DNA from: an uncultured Actinomycetes bacterium
Lineage (GTDB): Bacteria; Actinomycetota; Coriobacteriia; Coriobacteriales; Atopobiaceae
DNA: 64,000 bases
Assembly (NCBI GenBank): GCA_900314685.1
Contig: OMWE01000018.1
Coordinates: 1-64,000, forward strand
Direction: 5' to 3'
In this document: piece after piece, positions 30,126 through 56,824 of the stretch
Position numbering within the stretch: the stretch's first letter is position 1
Layout: every line of letters starts with the position of its first letter
Notes under the pieces: generated by a model
What the model saw: the letters and a program-made list of their open reading frames with translations, nothing else
Told to the model about the DNA's origin: nothing
The model's database searches: none
Translations under genes and position numbers: made by a program

Positions 30126-33078
30126 CTACTCTTCCTCCTCCTTACGACGGCGAAGAAGGGCGCCTGCGGCCAGCGCGGCCGCACCGCCCGCTGCGGCGAC
30201 GGCTGCACCAGCGGCGCCGGCGTCGCCAGTGGCCGGCAGCGCGGGCTGCTCGGAGACGACCGCGTGCTTGGGCTGGTAGGAGGCCTTGTGCGGGGTCTCG
30301 GGCTTCGCGGGCTCGGGCAGCTTCTCGTAGTAGAAGGTAACCTCCGTGCCGTCGACGCTCACGTAGCCGTCGCCCGAGCCGCGCAGCCTCCAGCCCGCCA
30401 CGTCCTTGGCGAGCACGTCCATGACCACATCCGGCACGGCGTACCAGGCGTCGTCGGCGACCGGCTTGCCCGTCACCGCGTCCACGAAGTGGACCGTGTA
30501 GACGTGGACGGGGTCGGCCTGGTAGACGAAGGTCAGGACGTTCCTGGTCGCGTCCGCGGAGACCAGGGTCGTGAGGCCCGTGGCGCCCACGTACTGGTAG
30601 CCCTTACGCGCCGGGTCGCTGGCGGCCAGGGCGAGCCTGGTGAGGTAGTCGCCCACCACGGCCTCGCCCTCCTCCGTCTTGAGCACGGTGCCGTCGGACG
30701 CCTTGTGGATCACCGTATAGCCGGCACGCTGGCCGAGCTTGCGCCAAGAGGCGAAGAGGCTCTGGTCGGCCTCGAGCGGCATGTCGAAGGAGAAGCGCGC
30801 CGGCACCTTGGAGTCGCCGCCCAGGTAGTACCAGTCCTCGAATGCGTAGCCCTCGCGGGCGGGCGCCTCAGGCTCGGTGGCCTCCTTGCCCCAGGCGACC
30901 GTCTGGCCGTCCACGGCGGACCCGCCGCGCGAGTCGAAGGTCACGCTCACGTCCGGACGCTTCCAGCGGGCGTAGAAGGACGCGCCTTTGTTCATCTTGA
31001 GCTCGGTCTCGGTGACGCGCTCGCCGCCTTCGGGGGCGGTGTACCAGCCGTCGAAGACCAGCCCGTCCTCGTGCTGCAGGTCCGAGACCTCCACACCATC
31101 GCCCAACATGTAAGTTTGTTCAAACTTGACGTGGGCAGAGTATACCAGCACGCCGTTATTGTAGTAATCGGCATTAAAGATACGCCTCGCATAGCGAACC
31201 TGCCACACATTGCCATCGCTCACGACATTGAGATAGTCGGTCGTTGGGAGCAGCCAGTAGCCCTGATCGTTTTTCGGCGTATCTGCAAAGCGCGTCCAGT
31301 CCCCGAAATTCACTCCTTGGTCCGCAAGGTCTCCCAGGGACTCGTTCCATTCGCCCGAGTAAACGCCCGACTTTCCGTCGGCAGTATGTGAGAGCCTCCA
31401 TGCATATAAATACCACCCGCTTGCGGGCGAGTCCTTGTACCAGAATGTGTGCCCCGTATAGCGACTGCTCCGCGCAGATGTCGATTTGTAGGAGAAGTCC
31501 CCTTCTTGGGGGTCACCGGCTACACCATCTTTCTCGGAGAAGCTCTGCGTGTAGTAGTTGGCGAGCTGCCGCTGAGACACCTCAAAGATGTAATAGGTTT
31601 CCAGCTCGCCGTTTTCGTTTGGACTTGCAGATACTCCATCGATGCTCAGGTAGGTAGTTGCCCCGTTGATGCCAAGCCCCGTGTAGTCGTTATGCCTAGC
31701 GGTCACATGCCACGTCGGGTCTCCTGCATGGCCTGCCGCTGCCACAGCCAGCGACTCCTGAGGAAAGACGATCTGGTCTCCAAATTCGATAGAGTACGGC
31801 TCTACGACGTTTGCACCGTCCCTAGACCCCACTGTCATGTGCACCAGCACCTGCCGGTAAAGGTAGTAGAGCTTGAGGACCGTGGAGCCGTCGCCCGCCA
31901 CCGTAACCAGCTCGGTGCGGGCGGGGTCGTAGCGGTAGATACGGTCGTTGCCCGTCGTGGTGTTGATGTAGGCGGCGAAAGCGTCCGCCTCGGCCTGGGT
32001 CACTTCATGCTCCGCCATGGCGGACCCAATCTGGGTAACCGCCGCGCCGCCGGAGGTCTTTGGCACGAACGTGGGCGAGCCGTCGTTGCCCTTGCCGTTC
32101 TGCACGTAGTAAGCCACCGTGTAGGTGACTTGTGCCGGCTCCCACACAGCCGTCGCAGTGACGTCCGCCCCGCCGATCTTGTCGGGCAGCGTGTCCGCCT
32201 TGCCGTCGCCGTCGGTGTCCCAGCCGGCGAAGGTGTAGCCGGGCTTAGTGGGATCCGCGGGCGCCGCGACAGCCGAGCCTTCCTCGCCGGTGACCGCGGG
32301 CACGTACGAGCCGCCCGTCACGAAGAAGACCGAGTGGGTGGGGATGTCCTGGTCGTAGCGGACGATGACCGTGGCCTTGCCGTCGTCGGTGACCTTGATG
32401 GTGGTCGGGTTGCCCTCGGCCAGGTGATAGCCGTAGTAGGTCTTGGTGGTGACTGGCTGGGTGCTGCCCGGCTCGGCTAGCAGGACGTCAGTGTCGCGGG
32501 TGGTGTACCCGTCACCGGTCTGGACCTCGTGGATTACCGTGTAGGTGACCTGGCTCGCCTTGTAGACGACCTTGTAGGTGGGGTTGTGGTCGTCTCCGCC
32601 GACCGTACCGGAGAGCGTGGCCTGCGAGGCGTCGAGCATCTCGTAGCCGATGGGGTCGGGGCTCGCAGCCGACCAGGACTGGCCGGCCTGCAGTGCCACC
32701 TGGTAGCTGGGGGCGATCTTCTTGCCCGACTGGTCCACGTAGTCGACGGTCACCTTGTAGATGCCCGCCTCCTCGTAGGTCTCGGTATTGCTGGAGGGCG
32801 CCGGGGCGGGCGCCTCCTCCGTCTGGCCGCCCTGCTCGGTGGCATCCGGTGTGCCGCCCTGGTCCGTGCCGTCCGGCGTCTCGCCGCCCTGGTCGGTCGA
32901 GTCCGTCGGCTCGCCGGTCTGCGTCTGGTCGGTCTCTGTCGCGACCGCCTGGTCCGTGCCGTCCGCCGCAGGCTGTGGCGCCTCGTCAGCCAGCGCCACC
33001 GCGGGCATGCCGAAGAGGAGTCCCGCCGTCAACGCCGCGGCCGCGGCCGAAGCCCCCCCCCTGTTTTCCGTATCCCAT
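30126..33078 (-). CDS. LPXTG-anchored surface protein with MucBP-like and InlB B-type repeats; out of frame at a G9 tract
   Basis: About 980 residues. The best start is ATG 33078, with AGAGGGG eight bases upstream. The codons after it reach a run of nine G (33061-33053) that puts this start one base out of frame with the rest; with eight G it would encode MGYGKQGGASAAAAALTAG and continue into an ideal signal peptide ending VALADE. After an acidic Gln/Thr/Gly-rich stretch come MucBP-like segments (ASQVTYTVIHEVQTGDGY, VTYTVAYYVQNGKG) and InlB-type repeats (GYTFAGWDTDGDG, GLVFDGWYTAPEGG, GYAFEDWYYLGG). The C terminus has LPATGDAG, a hydrophobic helix and RRRKEEEE, so sortase would anchor it to the wall. 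It is probably an adhesin, phase-off as sequenced. Confidence 0.88.
33053..33061. repeat. Poly-C/poly-G tract of nine at the start of the LPXTG gene
   Basis: Nine C on the plus strand (nine G in the coding strand) lie 17-25 bases after the A of the start codon. Eight or eleven G would restore the frame to the signal peptide; nine does not. Such tracts change length by slippage during replication. Confidence 0.9.
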
Positions 33079-34470: not shown

Positions 34471-36177
34471 TTACTTGTTGGCCTTGCGGCAACGGAGCAC
34501 GACCGCCACGATCGCGCAGGCAGCGCCGGCGATGGCAAACCCGGCCACGTTAACCGAGGGGTCGCCGGTCGCGGGAAGGGGCCGAGCGCTGGTCTTCTTG
34601 ACCGTGGCGGACTTGGCCGGCTGCGCGGGCGTGCTCGGCTTGGTCGGTGTGGTGGGCTTCGTCGGCTCGTCGGTCGGCTTGTCGGGTGTGGCGGGCTCGG
34701 CGGACTTCTTCACGGTGTAGGAAACGGTCGGCTTGCCGAACTCCTCGGCAGCAAGCGCAGTGCCGTCGCTGGACACCGGGTGGAGGACCGCCCGGCTATT
34801 GGTGTACAGGCCGTCGTAACCCTTGCTGCCATCCGCGTCGTAGGTGCCGTAGGTGCCCGCGGCGGTCTTGGAGTTGGTCAGCTTCACGGAGTAGGTCAAC
34901 TGGACCGGCGCGAAGTTGGAGACGGGGACGTTGATGGTCAGGCGGAAGTGCTCGTCGGCCTTCTTGTCGCCGGGGACGTACTCGAGCAGGTAGCGGTAGG
35001 TCCCGTCGTCCGCCTTGCCAAAGCCGTACGTATTCTCACCGGCGGCCTCCGCGGCCAGCGTCTCGTCCCCCACCTTCAGCGTGAGCTTATCGGCGCTGTT
35101 GACGAAGTCGAAGTCGTAGTCGCCGTCGGCGTAGCCCATGTAGTCGTCAACGTAGGAACCCTTGTCCACTAGGTAGCTGATGTCGTTCTTGATCTGGTCG
35201 AAGCTCACGGTCTGCCCGCCAGCCAGGTACTGCACGAAAGAAGGACCCCAGGCGAGCTCGGTGGTCGTCCCGACGGGCAGCGCGTAGGCGTGGTACTTCT
35301 TAGCAATGGCCTGGTACTCCATATACGTCTTGTACAGCGCCACGTCGGGCGAGCTGGCGTAGGAGTCCTTCTGCTGCCAGTCGTTGGTGGGCTGGTCGGC
35401 GGGGATGGGTTGGCTGTAGTCAAACTCGTACTGGGTGCCCTGGTTGGCCACCTTGGTGCCAATCGCGGTCAGCCAAGTGCCCCAATCGCCGGGAACGTAG
35501 CTCGCGGAACCGTACTCTTCCTGCCAGATGTATGCGCTCTTCCAGTAGTTGGGGTCCATCTTGTCCCGGTAGCTCCAGGCCGTGCAGGTGGGTTTCTCGT
35601 TGTAGATGTAGGTGATGCCGTCACTGACGAAAATCAGGTACTTGCGCGACGCGGCGACCGACGTGTCGCCGTCCAGCATCTGCTCGCCCGCGATCAGGCC
35701 GGCGTGGCTGTTGGTGCCGCTATGGAGCGTCTGGCCGACGGCCGCCTCGATATCGCTGTACTGCGTGGCGAGGTCGTAGAAATTGCCATCGTTTGCCACA
35801 TTGGCCTTGTTGTTGAAGATCACGACACCGACGTTGACCTTGGCATTGGTGTTCGCGACCTGCGCCTGGAGGTCCTGCAGCATCTGGAGGGCCTTGGTCT
35901 GGGTCTCGGTACCGCTGGTGGACTTGTCGAGGACGAGGACCACGTCGCTCACGAGCTGCTCCTCGGAGGAGGGCAGGGAGAGGGTCACCTGCGACTCGAG
36001 GTTGTCGTCGAGGTTCGTGGCGGTCTTGGACTTGGAGACCTCCCATTGCGGCGTCTGCGCCGCATCGTCAGCGTACGCCAGGCCCGCCCCCGGGAGGAGA
36101 ACGAGCGCGCAAGCCACTGAAAGCACCGTGCGCCACAGCCGGCTGAGGCGGTTATTCTTGCTTCGTTTCGTGTTCAT
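34471..36177 (-). CDS. LPXTG surface protein with a von Willebrand A domain (pilus tip-like)
   Basis: 568 residues. A signal peptide (basic MNTKRSKNNRLSRLWR, hydrophobic core, cleavage near GLAYADDA) is followed by a vWA domain (about 75-330) with the MIDAS start VLDKSTSGT (DxSxS) and IFVSDGITYI. A beta-rich domain lies about 350-480. A Pro/Thr/Lys spacer (PDKPTDEPTKPTTPTKP) leads to LPATGDPSVNVAGF, a membrane helix and RCRKANK. vWA proteins of this type often form pilus tips or bind host matrix. A LytTR-type promoter lies at 36265-36327, the same as that of the giant pilin gene. Confidence 0.9.
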   Translation of the reverse strand: MNTKRSKNNRLSRLWRTVLSVACALVLLPGAGLAYADDAAQTPQWEVSKSKTATNLDDNLESQVTLSLPSSEEQLVSDVVLVLDKSTSGTETQTKALQMLQDLQAQVANTNAKVNVGVVIFNNKANVANDGNFYDLATQYSDIEAAVGQTLHSGTNSHAGLIAGEQMLDGDTSVAASRKYLIFVSDGITYIYNEKPTCTAWSYRDKMDPNYWKSAYIWQEEYGSASYVPGDWGTWLTAIGTKVANQGTQYEFDYSQPIPADQPTNDWQQKDSYASSPDVALYKTYMEYQAIAKKYHAYALPVGTTTELAWGPSFVQYLAGGQTVSFDQIKNDISYLVDKGSYVDDYMGYADGDYDFDFVNSADKLTLKVGDETLAAEAAGENTYGFGKADDGTYRYLLEYVPGDKKADEHFRLTINVPVSNFAPVQLTYSVKLTNSKTAAGTYGTYDADGSKGYDGLYTNSRAVLHPVSSDGTALAAEEFGKPTVSYTVKKSAEPATPDKPTDEPTKPTTPTKPSTPAQPAKSATVKKTSARPLPATGDPSVNVAGFAIAGAACAIVAVVLRCRKANK

Positions 36178-36264: not shown

Positions 36265-36327
36265 AAACAGTAGCCGCAACCGCTCCGGCCCCATCGGACA
36301 TTTGGTGCCATGGCAAGACATTTCGTG
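36265..36327 (-). promoter_or_regulatory. LytTR-type direct repeats and promoter upstream of the vWA-LPXTG gene
   Basis: On the minus strand CACGAAATGTC (36327-36317) and CACCAAATGTC (36307-36297) are direct repeats 20 bp apart. After exactly 24 bp comes TACTGT (36272-36267), a likely -10. The same arrangement with the same spacings occurs at 43455-43515. Paired repeats two helical turns apart just upstream of a promoter lacking a good -35 are the usual targets of LytTR regulators. The remaining DNA of 36178-36502 contains a small CATACC/GGTATG hairpin and nothing coding. Confidence 0.7.
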
Positions 36328-36441
36328 TTCAAGCAGCCGACTGTCAGGGGTGTTCCCATAGGAGGCAGACACCATCGTAGAAGACGGACGTCCTCGTAGG
36401 ATCGTCTTCGCGGGAGGACCGTCTTCGCGGGAGCGCCCACG

Positions 36442-36482
36442 CAAAGAAAAGAGGGCCGCGCGCAATCGTGCAGCCCCCTCTC
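36442..36482 (-). terminator. Terminator of the giant pilin-like gene
   Basis: On the minus strand GAGGGGGCTGCACG and CGCGCGGCCCTC form a stem, followed by TTTTCTTT. It lies just past the stop codon at 36503. Confidence 0.8.
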
Positions 36483-36502
36483 ATTGGTGCTTGTCGCCTA
36501 CC

Positions 36503-39500
36503 TTACTTGCTGGCCTTGCGGCGGCGGAGCGCATGCGCGAGCGCCACACAGGCGGCGCCGGTCACGGCTATCTCAGCCACGCTGGTGAAGGGGTCACCTG
36601 TCTGCGGGATCAGCGACTTAATGACCCGCGCAGGCGTGCTGGGCTTCGACGGCTTGTCGGGCTTGACGGGCTCATCGGGCTCGCCCGGCGTGTAGACGTT
36701 GGTGAAGACGGGCGCCTTGTCCGAACCGTCGGCCGTCACGGAGGTTACCGTGAGCTGCCCGTCCTTGTCCTCCACCTTCACGGTGTAGGTGGCCGTCTTG
36801 GTGTCGTAGGTCACGCCGGACTCGTTACCCTGGACCTCGCGCACCTGATAGGTGTAGGTGCCAGCCTCGTCGAAGCTCAGGTTGTCGAAGGTCACGGCGC
36901 CGTCAGCCGCGTTGGTGCGGGTGTCGATGACCTTGCCGCTGGCATCGAGGAGCTCGAAGGAGAACTCGCCGGCCGCCAGCTCGCGTCCCTCGAGGACCTT
37001 CTGGGCGGTCAGGTAGCCGGAGCCGGACAGCGGCTTGTAGACGTTCTTGAAGGCGTGGCCCTTGGGATAGCTCACCGCGGTGGCCAGCGTGCCGTCGCCG
37101 TTGTCGGTCACCTTCACGGTCACGGGCAGCTTGATGGTGTCGTAGGTGACGCCAGTCGCAGAGCCGCCCTTCTCGACCATCGTGTACGTATGCTCGCCCA
37201 CCTGGGTCTGATCGTACTTGATGGAGGAGAAGACGACCGTACCATCAGCGGCGTTCTTGCCGGTGGCGACCTCGTTGCCGGCCGCATCGAGCAGCGCGAA
37301 CGCGAACTCGCCCTCGGTCATATCGCGGCCGGTCAGAGTCTTGGTCGCGGTGATGGAGTCGCCCGTCTCACCGGAGGCCTTGTAGCTGTTGTCGAAGACG
37401 GCGCCGTCCTCGTCGTAGGTGGTAGTGACGGTAAGCTCACCGTCCCCCTTGTCGGTCACCTTGACAGTCACAGTCTCGACGTGGGTGTCGTAGGTGTAGC
37501 CGGCCTTGTTGTCCGCTACCTCGGAAATCGTGTAGGTAAAGGTCTTGGTGCGCGCGGTCGTCTCGGCGTCGGCCGCGGGCTCCTTTGCAGGTACCTTTGC
37601 GGGAGCCTCGGCAACAGGCTCCTCGTCGACCACTTCGGTCACAGGAGCAGCGTCCGTCGCGGCCTCGGTAGCCACGACGTCTGCGTCAGTCTCGTCCGTG
37701 GCAGTCGCAGCGTCAACGTCCGTCTTCTCATCGGCGGCCTCATCGGTTGTCGTGTCGGTAGCCTCGGTGGTCACCTCAGCCGCCTTCGTATCGGCAGCCT
37801 CGGTCGGCACCTCGGTTTCCTCGTCAGTTACCACGGCGTCAGCCTTCGCACTGGTCGTTGTGGTGGCCGCATCGTCGAAGATGGACTGGTCGTACTTGAT
37901 GGCGTCGAATATTACGCGACCGGAGGCATCGTTCTTCTTGGTCTGGAGTACGTTGCCGTCGGAGTCCTTGAGCTGGAAGGAGAACTGATCCGCTTCGAGC
38001 GTACGGCCGGTCAGATTCTTCTGGGCGTAAATCGTGGTGCCCGTGGTGCCGGAGGCTTCGTACTTGTTGGAGAAGGTCTGCTTGGTGTAGGCCACGCTGG
38101 TGCTCATCGTGCCGTTGCCCTTGTCGGTGACGGTCACAGTCACCTCAGAGGTACCGCTGTCGTAGGTGTAGCCCTTCTTGCCTTCGTCCTTTTCGGAAAT
38201 CGTGTACTTATAGACGCCGGGCTTGGTGTACTCGAGGCCCTCGAAGGAGACGGTACCGTCGGCTGCGTTGGATTTAGTCTGGAGTACGTTGCCCCGGGCG
38301 TCCTTCAGCTCAAAGGAGAACTGACCGGCAGCGAGTGTGGCGCCAGTGAGGCTCTTCTTCACGGAGAGCTTGACGGCGGTATCGTCCTGCAGCGGCTTAT
38401 CGCCGTAGGTATTGGTGATCTCAGCTGCTTTGGTCACCTTTGCGGTCAGCTTGCCCTCGCCATTGTCCGTGACCTTGACCTCTACATTCTTGGGCGTGTT
38501 GTCGCAGGTCCAGCCGTCGCCAGACTGGGTGGTCTCGGTCAGCGTGAAGTTGTACGTGCCGGCCTTGGTAAAGGTGATGTTGCCGAAGCTGATGGTTTGG
38601 GTACCGGCCTGGGTGAAGGTCGCGGTGCCGTTGGAGTTCTCGATTGTCACATCAGCGGGGTTGCCGGTAGCGGGCGCGATGGTGAACTCAAACGTCTTGG
38701 ACTTCCAGTTGGCATCGGCGTTGTCAATGCTGTTCTTCACTGTCTTGGTCAGCACTGCCGTGGCCGCGGTATCGAGCTTGCCCGTAGACGCATACGTATT
38801 GGTAAAGGTATCGCTCTCAACAGTCTGGCCGTTCTTTGTGATGGTACGCGCGACGCCCAGGGTGCCATCGCCCTTGTCGGTGACCTCGTATTTGATGGTG
38901 TAAGCGCTCCTGTCGTTGGTCCAGCCAGTACCACCGCCCTTGGTCTCAGTCACGGTGTAGGTATAGGTGCCGGGCTTGGCGAAGGAGATTTCGCCAAACT
39001 CGGTGGAGCCAGCACCGTTGATGGTCACGGTCTTGGAGCCGTTACTAGATTCCGCAGGCATGGGATTAGCTGCGTCGTCGGGCGTCAGCGTGAATTCGAA
39101 AGTCGGCATCTTGTCAGCGGGGACGTCGCCCTCAATGACCTTGGTCACAGGCGGGTCCGCCGTCACAGGCTTCACGCCATAGGTATTGGTAATCTCGCCC
39201 ACCTGCGTGACCGTTGCCACAAGCTGGCCCTGGCCGTTGTCGGCCACGTGGATCTTGATGGTGGCCGTCGTGGAGCTGGCGGTCCAGCCGGCGGGCAGGG
39301 TGCCCTCGGTCACGGTGTATTCGTAGTCGCCGGCCTGCTTGAACGTGAAGGTGCCAAAGTCCACGGTCTTCTGACCGGTGGCATCGAAGGTCACGCTGCC
39401 CTCGGACTTGGTGGGCGCAGGGGCGCCGTTGACCGGCGCAATCGTGAAGGTGAACTCTGCCGACTTGGTCAGCGTCAGAGAGGACTCGGCCTTCTTGGTG

Positions 39501-42172
39501 AAGACGGCCGTGGTAGAGCTGTCGAGCTCGGCGGGCGTAGTGGTGTAAGTATTAGTGATGGTGGCGGCGTCGCCCTCGAGCGCGGCGGTCAGGTTGCCCT
39601 TGCCGTCGTCGGTGACCTTGACGGTCACGGTCTTGGGAGAGCCGGTGCACTTCCAGCCATCGCCCAGGTTGGTCGTGTCCTCGTTGAGCTCGTACTTGTA
39701 CTCGCCCGGCGCCGTGAAGGTGATGGTGCCGAAGCTGATGGTCTGCTCGCCTGCCTGCTTGAAGGTCGCAGAGCCAGTAGTGACGGCGGTGCCATCGGCC
39801 ATAGGTGCAGGGGCACCATCCTTGGGCGTGATGGTGAAGTTGAAGGTCTTACCGTTCTCGCCAGCCCATGCGGTGCCCTCGGCCACGACCTTCTTGGTAA
39901 GAAGAACCGTCGTGGAGGTATCAATCTCGGCGGGCTTGACGGTATAGGTGTTGGTGAAGTTGGTCACCCGGTCGCCGGACGTCACGGTCGCCTTGAGGGC
40001 GCCCTTGCCGTCGTCGGCCACATGCACCGTGACCTCCTTGGAGGTATGCGCATCGTTGGTCACGCCCTCGACGGAGCCGGACTCGGAGACGGTGTAGGTG
40101 TAGTCGCCTTCCTTGGTGAAGGTGATGTCACCGAAGCTGACCGCGGTGCCCTGGCCGTCGGGGTTCTTGGCCGACGTGGTCTTGGGCATCGGGGCACCCT
40201 CGGTGACGGCAGCGATCGTCAGGTCGTACTTGCCGGTGACATCGGGGGCGTTGAGGCCGTCAGCGGCGCTCAGCGTCTTGGAAGCGCCCAGGTTGATGGT
40301 GGCCGCTGTTGCGCTATAGGTGTTGGTGAACTTGACGGCCACACCGCCATTGACGGTGGCGGTCATGGTGCCGTCGGAGTTGTCCTTGACGACGACCGTG
40401 ATCTCCTTGGTGGCCTGGGCGTCGTTGGTCACGCCGTCTACGCTGCCGGTCTCGGTCACCTTGTACTTGTAGGTGCCGGGCTTGGTGTAGGTGATGGTAC
40501 CAAAGCTCGCGGTGCCACCGTTAGCTGCGGGATTCTTGATCTCGGTCTTCTCGGCGGGCATCGGGGCATTGTCTTCGGCTTCGAGCTTGAAGGTGTACTT
40601 GCCCGTGATGTCGCCAGGACCGGTCAGGCCCGAGGGGATGCTGAGAACCTTCTCCACGGGGATGGTTGCCGTGGTCTCACCCACGCTGTAGGCGTTGGTG
40701 AACTCGAGGTCCTTGCCGCCGTTGACGGTGGCGACCAGCTGGCCCTCGCCGTTGTCAGCCACGACGACGGTGACCGTCTTGGCGGAGACGGAGTCGTTGG
40801 ACACGCCCTTGACCTCGCCAGTCTCAGTCACGGTATAGGTGTAGGTACCGGGCTTGTCGTAGGCGATGTCGCCGAAGGAGACCGTGCCGCCGTCCTCGTC
40901 AGGATTGGTGAGCGCCGTGGTCGCGGGCATCGGCGTGCCATCATCGGCCGTCAGCGTGAAGGTGTACTTGCCCGTGATGTTCGGAGCGGTGAGCCCCTCG
41001 GGCACGGTCAGGTTCTTCTTCACGGGGATGCTGGCCGTGGTGGACTTGCTCGTGTAATCGTTCTTGAAGGAGACGGCATAGGTGGTGTTGCTCTGGGTCA
41101 CCTCGCCGGACACGGTCTTTCCACTCACGGTTGCACCGTTTGTGCCCGTGGCCTTATTGAACGTGAAGCCCTCGGGCATATCATCGGAGTTCTCCGTGAA
41201 GGAATACTTCATGCCCTTGGGGGCGTTGATGATGCGGAGATTCTGGCCAGCCTTGAGGGAGACAGTGAACTCGGTGCCGCTGCCCACGTAATAGTAGCCG
41301 GTCTTGGCCCCGTCCTTGACCTCGGCGGTGGCGGAAGTGGTCAGGTTCTGTACCAGCTTGCCCTCGGCATCCTCGACGGAGAACCACACATCGGCGCCCG
41401 TCGGGTCAGTCACGGTGCCGGAGAAGGAGAACGCCTTGTCCGGAGCGGTGACGCCCGCTGTCTTGCTCTCGACGGTCTTGGTCAGGTTGATGGTGGAGCG
41501 GCGGTAGTTGGTTGCCGTGATGGTGGCAGCTGCCGCGCCTTCGACCTTGGCGTACTTCTTACCGTTGATTGTGTACTGACCGGCATCATCCTGCTTTAGC
41601 ATGGTCAGCGTGCCATCGATGATCATCGGATGGTAGGTGGCCACGGAGAGGTCGTAGTGGTACTCGCTGGCAGGCTCGGTCACGGTATAGTCGTGGCCGG
41701 ACTCGAGTACCTCATACGTATCGCCAGTCGTCTTGATGATGCCCGGGGCAATGGAGATGTTGCTGGTCCAGGCGGGGGTACTATCGCTAGTGAGCTTCTT
41801 CTCCAAGAAGGTCTTGCCGTCAGACGTAACCGTGAGGTCAACGGAGTCGACCGCGTAGGAGTCGAGGGGGTCGGGGTTGGTGAAGTCGACCTGGCCCGGG
41901 GTCTCCTTGGTGCCGGTGTAGGTGCCGTCCTCGTTCTGGGTCCACTTGGAGCCGTCGGGGGCGGTCCAGGTACCGTCCTCGTTTTGTGTGACGCCGTCGG
42001 GCAGCTTGGTGGACGTGGTGGTCTCCACCTTGTTGTAGGTCACGGTGTTGCCGTCGGCGGTGTTGGTCCTGAGGGCGTAGCCGTCGCTGGATTTGACGAT
42101 CTGGGCCTTCTGGTCAGCGGTAAGGCTGTCGTACGTCTTGGTACCGTTCTTGAGGTCGGCGAGGATATCCAT
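36503..42172 (-). pseudogene. Downstream part of a frameshifted giant pilin-like LPXTG protein (FctA-type repeats)
   Basis: About 1,890 residues that continue the protein encoded at 42183-43385 in another frame. It starts in the conserved PSQEAMDILADLKNG segment that normally follows the vWA domain. Then come a Cna-B-like region and about eleven repeats of roughly 110-130 residues, each ending in a FTNTY-type strand and starting a KTL-type strand (for example ASKTLSAADGL, VKKSLTGATLAAGQFSFEL), resembling Spy0128/FctA pilin domains that form Lys-Asn isopeptide bonds. The end is IPQTGDPFTSVAE, a helix and RRRKASK. Alone this part has no signal peptide. An AGGAGG just before ATG 42172 has a spacing of only 2 and is probably coincidental. 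Confidence 0.85.
37548..37876 (-). other. Thr/Ala/Glu/Asp-rich insert inside one pilin repeat
   Basis: Between FDAIKYDQSIFDDAA and KTFTYTISEVADNKAG, where the other repeats have no more than about 20 residues, there is a stretch of about 110 residues made of short units such as TEAADTKAAEVTTEA and ATDETDADVVATEA. The frame is kept. It looks like a flexible, possibly glycosylated or simple-sequence expanded loop within a folded repeat. Boundaries are approximate. Confidence 0.75.
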
Positions 42173-42182
42173 CGCCTCCTGG

Positions 42183-43385
42183 CTAGGCAGTGCCCAGGCT
42201 GCTAAGGTCCCAGGACACCTTGCCGTTGGTGAAGGTAGCCTGAGCCCCCTCCGGCACATCGGTCCAGGCCTGGCCGCCCTTGGTGTAGGTGAAGTTGTCA
42301 ACCGCGTCGGTGCGCACCAGGCTCGCGGTGAGGCTGGTAACGTTGTCGGTCACCTGGACGTTCTTGTAGCCAACCGCGTTAGTGATCTCGTTCAGGATGT
42401 TCTTGAAGGCGGCGTTGAGGGCAGCCTCATCGGTGGCGTCGTAGTAGGTACCGCCCAGGTTCTTCATGTTGTCGGCATCGCCGAAGGCACCGATGGTGTA
42501 GAGGTGGTAGGAGCTGTCGAGCGAGTTGACGACATCCTGGGCTGCACCGAAGTTCCAGCCGTTGGGATCGGTGTTGCCGTTGCCATAATGACCGTAGTAG
42601 CTGTTCCAGTCATTAGCCAACTGACTGTACTTCGAGTCACGGAAGCTGGGAATTCCGTCAGAGACAAAGATGATGTAGGTCTCCTCGTCGGGCTGGGCCT
42701 CGTGCTTGGCGTCGGCAAGTTCCTTGGCCTTTGCCAGCGCGGCCTCCCAGTTGGTACCGCCGTTGGCGGTGTAGGCGTTGACCGCACTGTCCAGGGTGTC
42801 CTTGTCGGTGGTCCAGTCGGTGGTGCCCTTGACGTTGGTGGCGAAATTGACCAGGGAGATCTCCACCGCGTCTTTGTTTTCGTCAGTATTGTTGGCCGTC
42901 AGCTGGTCGATGAGCTTGGTCGTTGCATCCTGTGCGACCTGCAGACGAGTTCCGCCCGTACGCAGGTAGCGCGTACCCTCGTAGCGGGTGTCATACCAGC
43001 CGTAGGTCCAGTACTCAGCCCTGCCTCGCCTTGCACGGTGGTAGTCGAGCTCCACGTACTCGCCGTCCACCAGGCCGTAGGTACCGTACTTCTCGTCGGT
43101 CGGCGTGTACGTATACTGGCCAGTCGAGTAGTCCATCGACCCAGACGTATCAAACACGATGACCACGTTGGCCTTGGAGCTCTCGGAGCTCGTGCTCGCC
43201 GTGCCCGTGACGGAGAGGGTCAGGCGGTAGGTGCCATCATTGTTGGACACCAGGGTCTTTGCCACCTGGGGCGGCGTGTCGTTGGCGGTATCGGCCGCAA
43301 TGCCAGTGGTGACACCCACGGTCACCAGGACCGCCGCAACGACGGCGGCAATGGCGGCGAGCAGCCTCGTTCCAAACTTCGGCAT
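42183..43385 (-). CDS. N-terminal vWA part of the giant pilin-like LPXTG protein (truncated by frameshift)
   Basis: 400 residues from the ATG at 43385 (GAGGTGG eight bases upstream). The signal peptide MPKFGTRLLAAIAAVVAA is followed by a vWA domain with an intact MIDAS: FDTSGSMDYS, the Thr in GGTNWEAAL and Asp in FVSDGIPSF. It ends in VSWDLSSLGTA and a TAG at 42183. Related proteins continue here with about 13 residues and then WPSQEAYDL; that PSQEAM segment lies in the next frame only a few bases away. This suggests a small deletion that also shifted the frame. As sequenced it would be secreted without a wall anchor. Confidence 0.85.
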   Translation of the reverse strand: MPKFGTRLLAAIAAVVAAVLVTVGVTTGIAADTANDTPPQVAKTLVSNNDGTYRLTLSVTGTASTSSESSKANVVIVFDTSGSMDYSTGQYTYTPTDEKYGTYGLVDGEYVELDYHRARRGRAEYWTYGWYDTRYEGTRYLRTGGTRLQVAQDATTKLIDQLTANNTDENKDAVEISLVNFATNVKGTTDWTTDKDTLDSAVNAYTANGGTNWEAALAKAKELADAKHEAQPDEETYIIFVSDGIPSFRDSKYSQLANDWNSYYGHYGNGNTDPNGWNFGAAQDVVNSLDSSYHLYTIGAFGDADNMKNLGGTYYDATDEAALNAAFKNILNEITNAVGYKNVQVTDNVTSLTASLVRTDAVDNFTYTKGGQAWTDVPEGAQATFTNGKVSWDLSSLGTA

Positions 43386-43454
43386 GGTACATCCACCTCT
43401 CTGGGGCTTATGGCGTTTGAGACATGGTTAGCCCCCTGTATCATGAGTACCAAA

Positions 43455-43515
43455 AAGGTAGTCGAGACCGCATTTCCGCAGGTAGACATTTGGTGCCACC
43501 AGGCATCCTTTCGTG
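43455..43515 (-). promoter_or_regulatory. LytTR-type direct repeats and promoter upstream of the giant pilin gene
   Basis: On the minus strand CACGAAAGGAT (43515-43505) and CACCAAATGTC (43495-43485) are 20 bp apart, followed after 24 bp by TACCTT (43460-43455). Between repeat and -10 both promoters share GCGGT and CTAC. The site is in the divergent region between this gene and the LytTR regulator gene at 43665. Confidence 0.7.
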
Positions 43516-43664
43516 CCGTGTGCGTTCTCGTGCACGTTCTTCTTCGCCACGCGACCCGCGATTTGGGTACGCTATTTCCGACCCGCGCGGGCTGTATGAT
43601 GTGAGCCACACACATGATGTGACCACACGCACGCACGACCCCCGACCGACAGATGGGAGGCGAC

Positions 43665-44402
43665 ATGACGCGCATCGCCGTGCTCGACGACGACAGGCAG
43701 TGCCTCGACCAGCTGGTGGAGCATGCCACGCACTACCTGGACGCCCACGGCGGCGGACATGTCGATGCCTTCGACAGCCCCGACGAGTTCCTCCTCGCCC
43801 ACCGGCCCGGCGCCTACGACCTGCTGGTCTTCGACTGCGTCTTTGACAAAGACAGACGCGGCGGCGTGGACGTCCTGCTGGAGCTCCGCCGACGCGGCGA
43901 CACCACGCTGGCCGTACTGGTCACCTCGAGCCCGGACTACGCGATCAGCGGCTATGCGGCGGACGTCCGCGCCTACGTGCTCAAACCCGTCACCTACGGC
44001 AGACTCGCGGCCGAACTCGACCGCCTGGGCGTCGCATTGACTACCCCCCCCCGACCGCAATCCGCGCTCAGACTCCCCAGCGGTGACGTCATAAGCCCTG
44101 AGACCATCGCCTACGCCCAGGCCGACCGGCACTACATCTGCATCTATGACTCCGCCGGTGTACCCACGCGCATACGCATGCCCTTCGGGCAATTCGAAGA
44201 AGAACTCGCCCCCTGGCCCCAGCTCTACCACGCCAACCGCGGCCTGCTGGTCAACCTCGACTTTGTCTCGCGTCTGGACGACGGCGACTTCGTGCTCTTC
44301 GACGGCACCAGGCTGCCCGTTGCCCGCCGCCAGGTCTCCCAGGCGCGCGAGGCGCTGGCGGACCGGGGCTTCAAGCGGCTGCGCGACGGGGAGCGTCTGT
44401 GA
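43665..44402 (+). CDS. LytTR-family response regulator
   Basis: 245 residues starting MTRIAVLDDDRQCLDQL at 43665, with GGGAGG six bases upstream; an ATG at 43653 lies before the ribosome site and was rejected. Receiver domain (1-120): the acidic pocket is LDDD, the phospho-Asp is in YDLLVFDCVF, and the conserved Lys is in AYVLKPVTYG. LytTR DNA-binding domain (about 140-240): IAYAQADRHYICIYD and PQLYHANRGLLVNLDFV. A run of nine C (44044-44052) lies in the linker between domains; the frame is open as sequenced. Its gene overlaps the sensor kinase, and it probably binds the repeats upstream of the two pilin-like genes. Confidence 0.94.
   Translation: MTRIAVLDDDRQCLDQLVEHATHYLDAHGGGHVDAFDSPDEFLLAHRPGAYDLLVFDCVFDKDRRGGVDVLLELRRRGDTTLAVLVTSSPDYAISGYAADVRAYVLKPVTYGRLAAELDRLGVALTTPPRPQSALRLPSGDVISPETIAYAQADRHYICIYDSAGVPTRIRMPFGQFEEELAPWPQLYHANRGLLVNLDFVSRLDDGDFVLFDGTRLPVARRQVSQAREALADRGFKRLRDGERL
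44044..44052. repeat. Poly-C tract of nine inside the LytTR regulator gene
   Basis: Nine C fall at the receiver-LytTR linker (residues TTPPRPQ). Gain or loss of one C would cut the protein after the receiver domain and remove DNA binding. Confidence 0.9.
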
Positions 44403-55837: not shown

Positions 55838-56824
55838 TTACTGTGCCGCGGCGGCCTCGGCCGCCACGACCTCGTCGTACGGCGCGCAGACCAAAAGGCC
55901 GCGGCCGTGACCCTTTGCGTACTTGCTGTAATACACGCAGGTAGAGAGCGTCATTACCTTGGAAACGCCGTTGATGGTGGTCTCGGCCCCCGCGCGCCGG
56001 GTGACCGCCTTGGCACAGCGGTCCGCGAGGTACGTGTGGAACGCGTCCTCGCTCTCGAAGGTCAGGGTGCGGGCCTCCGCGTCGTCGCGGTCGGTGTCGT
56101 AGAAGAAGAGCGGGAGCAGCCGCGTGGCCCCGTCGGGCGTGATGTACCAGACGTCCGTTGCGGCGTCGAATGTGTCCTGCTGGTCCATGCGGGAGATGGG
56201 CTCGAACATCGCGCCGTTGTTGAGGTGGTGGCCGTATATGAGCGACTGCTGGTCCACGAGACCGGGCGCCGTGTTGTCGCAGTCGAGGAAGATCTGGCCG
56301 CCGATGGTCCAGGTGCCCTCTGCGTTGTGGCGCAGGTAGTGCTCGTTGTCCTCGCCCTGGTACACGGGGAAGCTGACGGGCGTGCCGCCCACGTAGATCC
56401 AGCCGACGATATCGTCGTTGATCGCGCGCAGGCCGTCCCAGTCCACGTCCACCGGGCACTGCTCCTCGGGCGTATCGGCCTCGACCACGGCGTATTTGGC
56501 CAGGTCGGCGTTGACGACGTCCTGCTCGTGGTAGGAGTACTGCTGGTAGGCAAACATACCGCCCGCCACGACCAGCAGGATGATGCCGACGATGAGCAGC
56601 AGGTTGGACACCACGTGGCGCGCGCCCTTGCGGCGCTTGGCCTTCATCGAGTATTTGGCCGGCGCCTGGCGGCTCGGCGCGGCGCTCCGCATCGGGACCG
56701 CGCCGCGCTGCATCGTCGCGCCCTGGTCGGGCGTGCGCTCCGGTGCCGTATCCCGTTCGGGCGCGCGCTCCGGCTCGTCGTCCCGGCTCGGCCCCGCGGC
56801 CATGTGCCTGCCTGTCCCTGCCAC
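55838..56824 (-). CDS. Class B sortase
   Basis: About 328 residues. A charged N-terminal tail (about 1-66) precedes one membrane helix (VVSNLLLIVGIILLVVAGG), so the enzyme faces outward. The catalytic residues are in IYGHHLNNG (His199), TLSTCVYYS (Cys296) and GHGRGLLV (Arg308). The SrtB pattern of long inserts is kept. It joins sorting-motif proteins to the wall or links pilin subunits. The start is a GTG at 56824 with GGAGGG upstream; ATG 56803 is an alternative. It is nested between purE and purM in the purine operon, and no sorting substrate is encoded beside it. Confidence 0.92.
   Translation of the reverse strand: MAGTGRHMAAGPSRDDEPERAPERDTAPERTPDQGATMQRGAVPMRSAAPSRQAPAKYSMKAKRRKGARHVVSNLLLIVGIILLVVAGGMFAYQQYSYHEQDVVNADLAKYAVVEADTPEEQCPVDVDWDGLRAINDDIVGWIYVGGTPVSFPVYQGEDNEHYLRHNAEGTWTIGGQIFLDCDNTAPGLVDQQSLIYGHHLNNGAMFEPISRMDQQDTFDAATDVWYITPDGATRLLPLFFYDTDRDDAEARTLTFESEDAFHTYLADRCAKAVTRRAGAETTINGVSKVMTLSTCVYYSKYAKGHGRGLLVCAPYDEVVAAEAAAAQ

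Follow-up and report, generated by a model that had tools for sequence, protein, structure and literature searches.

A conserved paired-repeat element, probably of the LytTR type, upstream of two LPXTG-anchored adhesin genes in an uncultured Atopobiaceae bacterium

Introduction

Published LytTR binding sites consist of repeats of 9-11 nt separated by 11-13 nt, and they share no common consensus (PMC4847170). In Escherichia coli, the two-component LytTR regulator YpdB, which has a single main target, acts at the yhjX promoter, where a pair of direct repeats starting with GGCA lies upstream of the core promoter (PMC4847170). The HdrR/BrsR LytTR Regulatory Systems of Streptococcus mutans use 9-bp direct repeats with about 11-12 bp between them, just upstream of promoters that are activated by the LytTR protein (PMC6193735). 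ComE of Streptococcus pneumoniae and AgrA of Staphylococcus aureus combine a receiver with a LytTR domain. Both are partnered by GHKL kinases. AlgR of Pseudomonas aeruginosa is a LytTR-type regulator of surface appendages, acting on type IV pilus genes.

Here we describe a locus in a 64,000-nucleotide stretch of an uncultured Atopobiaceae genome (the window, meaning the whole stretch analysed) that resembles each of these systems in part. Like yhjX, it has a GGCA-starting repeat pair and a two-component LytTR regulator, P0001; the YpdB repeat is GGCATTTCAT, however, the YpdB kinase is LytS-type whereas the one here is GHKL/AgrC-like, and the target there is a transporter instead of adhesins. 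P0001 scores 22 bits against the related BtsR model, far below its cut-off of 246. The HdrR/BrsR sites are alike in repeat length and distance, but their regulators are restrained by a membrane inhibitor, with no kinase driving them; the promoters retain a -35, and the genes controlled are those for bacteriocins and the systems' own operon. P0001 has the domain layout and the GHKL partner of ComE and AgrA, and ComE (4cbv) is its best match among solved full-length structures; the ComE and AgrA systems differ in that they respond to secreted peptides and govern competence or virulence. AlgR acts on a different appendage, in a Gram-negative host and through unrelated sites. We found no description in the literature of a LytTR-controlled regulon in this bacterial group.

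Results

Upstream of both adhesin genes, on the minus strand, stands a paired element made of two 13-base direct repeats, GGCACSAAAKGTC and then GGCACCAAATGTC, set 20 bp apart (Table 1). The 20-bp spacing and the 24-bp gap from the proximal repeat to a TAnnnT box are exact in both site A and site B, just as the sequence-only reading had given them for the genes starting at 36177 and 43385. Site B lies between the divergent adhesin B and LytTR genes. GCGGT and CTAC, which that reading had also called conserved, are common to sites A and B, while the corresponding sites of two related genomes, G006 and G049, retain only the C adjoining the TA of the box and not GCGGT.

If TAnnnT is the -10 box, the proximal repeat would span roughly -49 to -37, with the distal repeat two turns further upstream. 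Neither adhesin promoter yielded a sigma-70 -35/-10 pair, and the lack of a -35 at promoter A fits a promoter that needs an activator. With the proximal repeat at the -35 position and TAnnnT at exactly 24 bp in four sites, the arrangement is, in layout, that of a class-II promoter, one needing an activator at the -35 position. A sigma-54 promoter (TGGCAC-N5-TTGC) was considered and rejected, because the sites do not accommodate its TTGC part and contain the motif twice. On the plus strand, a sigma-70-like promoter (TTGAGA-16-TATCAT, 43417-43444) faces the LytTR gene and overlaps promoter B; no counterpart was found in G006, so we rate it as weak.

Table 1. Features of the adhesin and LytTR locus in the window
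Feature	Coordinates	Strand	Description
Adhesin A, 568 aa	34471..36177	-	signal peptide, VWA domain, C-terminal LPATG sortase signal
Proposed -10 box, promoter A	36267..36272	-	TACTGT, 24 bp past proximal repeat
Site A	36297..36329	-	AACACGAAATGTC (36329-36317), 7 bp, GGCACCAAATGTC (36309-36297); 20 bp start to start
Adhesin B remainder, other frame	36503..42301	-	11 FctA/Spy0128-like isopeptide domains, LPQTG anchor
Adhesin B N-terminal part, 400 aa	42183..43385	-	signal peptide, VWA domain; frame stops at 42183
Proposed -10 box, promoter B	43455..43460	-	TACCTT, 24 bp past proximal repeat
Site B	43485..43517	-	GGCACGAAAGGAT (43517-43505), 7 bp, GGCACCAAATGTC (43497-43485); 20 bp start to start
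Response regulator P0001, 245 aa	43665..44402	+	receiver and LytTR DNA-binding domains
GHKL sensor kinase P0002, 481 aa	44402..45847	+	adjoins and overlaps end of LytTR gene

The likeness of the two sites is confined to the element. Within its 63 bp, 36 positions are identical, compared with 16/69 downstream and 21/100 upstream (21-23%, the chance level), in agreement with the earlier observation that the surrounding sequence is otherwise different. The best ungapped alignment of A with B scores 18.0; the maximum among 1000 pairs of dinucleotide shuffles was 16.4, and none of the 1000 reached the observed score. A pattern of the full element (two half-sites, the 24-bp gap and TA, with up to three mismatches) matched sites A and B only in the 2.35-Mb genome, which is 91% complete, and the reversed control matched nothing. 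A second pattern, built on other positions, found A, B and one three-mismatch match, the latter at the level of its control. Any regulon would therefore comprise just two promoters, both at the same locus. Neither pattern detected a further copy before another LytTR gene of the genome, as autoregulation would place it. The two adhesin proteins show hardly any similarity (E 0.007), which argues that the shared promoter is not the leftover of a recent duplication.

The two genes had been described as pilin-like, a label that we replace. Both encode proteins with the make-up of fibrillar LPXTG adhesins, namely a VWA domain with an LPATG signal in A, and a VWA domain, 11 FctA domains and an LPQTG anchor in B; adhesin A has no stalk repeats. 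No sortase lies within 10 kb of the adhesin genes, and the locus is not one of pilins clustered with a class C sortase, as a sortase-assembled pilus locus would be. LPXTG-anchored (fibrillar) adhesin is thus the safer name. The only sortase of this contig is class B-like (55838-56824, minus strand, some 11 kb past the LytTR gene) and scores 142 bits, just below the curated NCBIfam score of 154; the two clear Sortase-family matches of the genome, at its 91% completeness, lie on other contigs, C15 and C42. The second gene does start at 43385 as had been stated, but its frame stops early and the coding sequence continues in another frame, so that in this assembly adhesin B is split across two frames at 42183-42301. 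The homologue in G006 is intact (2344 aa, L042 5395-12429), and the frame change in the window is either a mutation or an assembly error.

The regulator and sensor kinase genes are adjacent to site B, as had been noted. P0001 carries a LytTR domain (PF04397, 32.6 bits, cut-off 22.6) and a receiver domain (PF00072, 33.2 bits, cut-off 30.2), in which the phospho-acceptor Asp and the conserved Lys, D57 and K107, are invariant in alignment A2. P0002 has a GHKL ATPase domain and is likely the partner kinase of P0001. In G006, the P0001 orthologue (68%) is divergent from the adhesin gene, with the element between the two. A 39% homologue in G044 stands among large surface-protein genes, and a P0001 scan of genome contigs returned one distant clostridial locus only. 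G047, which belongs to the same genus as G049, has an orthologous kinase (42%) and a C-terminal LytTR remnant adjoining an FctA adhesin. This remnant (L163 9418-9693, G047:C124) overlaps the start of the adhesin frame and is followed by the intact kinase, and the promoter there was lost by deletion or the contig is chimeric.

We searched 140 genomes of the family for the repeat pair, the -10 box not being required. Matches with two mismatches or fewer were confined to G006, G049 and the window's own genome, the first two belonging to two other genera. In both, a TAnnnT box follows the proximal repeat at exactly 24 bp (TAGCCT in G006, TAGCAT in G049) and a VWA/FctA adhesin lies downstream, the box being about 245 bp (G006) or about 70 bp (G049) from the start codon. 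Among the upstream regions of 25 P0004 homologues, taken as further adhesin promoters of the family, the element was likewise found only in these three genomes; the G006 repeats fell below the cut-off of one upstream scan, and that site was established from its locus. A weight matrix made from the four sites gave leave-one-out scores of 33-39 bits, and the background over about 0.95 Mb of loci stayed near or under 20 bits, the sites of G150 and G159 excepted.

These two genomes, close relatives that we count once and that belong to a different family, contributed two further three-mismatch matches (26-29 bits) when 397 genomes of the order were searched. Their copies (L093 9477-9539 and L094 9701-9639) are weaker, with a TAnnnT box (TACGTT) at 24 bp and a thioester/SpaA/TQ anchored adhesin starting 84 bp downstream. 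Since by our estimate about one chance match is expected in so loose a search, they are suggestive only. One more match, in G274, has three mismatches and a box without the final T and was taken as chance; leaving it out, the element is present in five of the 397 genomes. From its recurrence with the same spacing, the element is a conserved putative promoter element of sortase-anchored adhesins.

Discussion

We consider it probable, with some reserve, that both elements are activator-dependent promoters co-activated by phosphorylated P0001. An outside signal would lead the GHKL kinase P0002 to phosphorylate P0001. Once phosphorylated, P0001 may bind both direct repeats, arranged head to tail and, at 20 bp or about two turns, on the same side of the helix. 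The proximal repeat would cover the place of a -35 hexamer, and P0001 bound there could recruit RNA polymerase to the -10 box, TAnnnT, which lies 24 bp further downstream, so that both sortase-anchored VWA adhesins would be switched on together. The sequence-only reading had spoken of a likely regulon and binding site. The shared promoter architecture is strongly supported, as is a small regulon (two sites in the genome, with counterparts in two other genera); the LytTR type is supported by the length and spacing of the repeats, 9 nt plus 11 nt making 20 bp start to start in A, B, G006 and G049, and by the divergent LytTR/GHKL pair here and in G006. We conclude that the element is very probably a LytTR-type binding site. 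Given the gene-order associations and repeats that resemble LytTR sites in length and spacing, P0001 is the best candidate for its reader, and the neighbouring P0001 is likely the protein that would bind sites A and B.

The chance that the resemblance of A and B is an accident or an assembly duplicate is close to nil: although short motifs do recur in the window (CACSAAA alone occurs 15 times), neither the shuffles, nor the two genome matches with a zero control, nor the differing flanks, nor the identical spacing in two other genera fit such an origin, and with the weak protein likeness we rejected chance and recent duplication alike. The identity of the regulator leaves more room. The window's genome has nine LytTR genes, and another of their products might bind both promoters, leaving P0001 with other targets. 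One such regulator, G000:C29:62402, is widely conserved, with orthologues in G006, G049, G150 and G159, so that, unlike P0001, its clade occurs in all five element-bearing genomes. No P0001 orthologue was detectable, in agreement with a tree, in G049 (where the adhesin extends to a contig end), G150 or G159, though the element is present, and G041 has a 47% homologue of P0001 yet no matching site; the co-occurrence of regulator and site is weak once the window's genome is left out. Regulator and site are thus less tightly tied than gene order suggests. The GGCA start that the element shares with the repeats bound by the LytTR protein YpdB (PMC4847170) is also in keeping with the conserved regulator. 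Its clade is found in G274 as well, however, where the sole match looks like chance, the element is present in only five of the 397 genomes, and no element lies near its own gene in the loci scanned; we therefore regard this alternative as unlikely, if worth bearing in mind.

A reader from outside the LytTR family, whether another DNA-binding protein or an alternative sigma factor, would make the LytTR neighbour coincidental. Regulators of other families, too, bind direct repeats spaced by two turns, by eye the repeat agrees only loosely and partially with a LytTR consensus, in either orientation, and sites exist without a P0001 orthologue. The tandem copies and the normal-looking -10 box speak against a sigma factor, though, while the repeats match LytTR sites in length and spacing and the divergent LytTR gene is present in two genera, which leaves this explanation slightly less plausible than a different LytTR regulator. 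P0001 might also bind and repress, the bound pair covering the promoter and blocking RNA polymerase until a signal releases it. A site that touches the -35 region can act in activation or in repression, and the sigma-70-like promoter of the LytTR operon overlaps promoter B, but that promoter is without a counterpart in G006 and promoter A, having no -35, fits the need for an activator; repression is accordingly a distinctly improbable reading.

Activation by P0001 would make the locus, in all likelihood, a new example of an ordinary kind of switch, the LytTR-type activated promoter. It gives an exact prediction for the control of large surface adhesins, with two promoters, two start sites and one binding protein, and the element can serve as a search pattern for the same control elsewhere. 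Tentatively, and with more doubt than confidence, the paired repeat with its 20-bp spacing, the 24-bp gap to TAnnnT and no -35 could be a dedicated adhesin promoter code in this actinobacterial order, read by LytTR regulators and placed before unrelated adhesin types, VWA/FctA in one family and thioester/SpaA/TQ in another.

Other repeats and tracts were noted near related genes. Downstream of the homologous LytTR/kinase pair of G044 (L044 15889-15945), a GGCACGAACGG-like repeat occurs two or three times at intervals of 20-22 bp, with no TAnnnT box at 24 bp. G006 has an unusually large set of LytTR genes, about 17 in 2.7 Mb. In G116 (L133), a different direct repeat, GAATTTCATTCCG-like and present twice at 21 bp, stands about 165 bp before the start of a related adhesin and is possibly another LytTR-type site. 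A run of nine C (44044-44052) in the receiver-LytTR linker of the P0001 gene, not conserved in the G006 protein, is a possible slippage (phase-variation) tract, and a C9 run also occurs at 33053-33061 in the gene of a 1080-aa surface protein.
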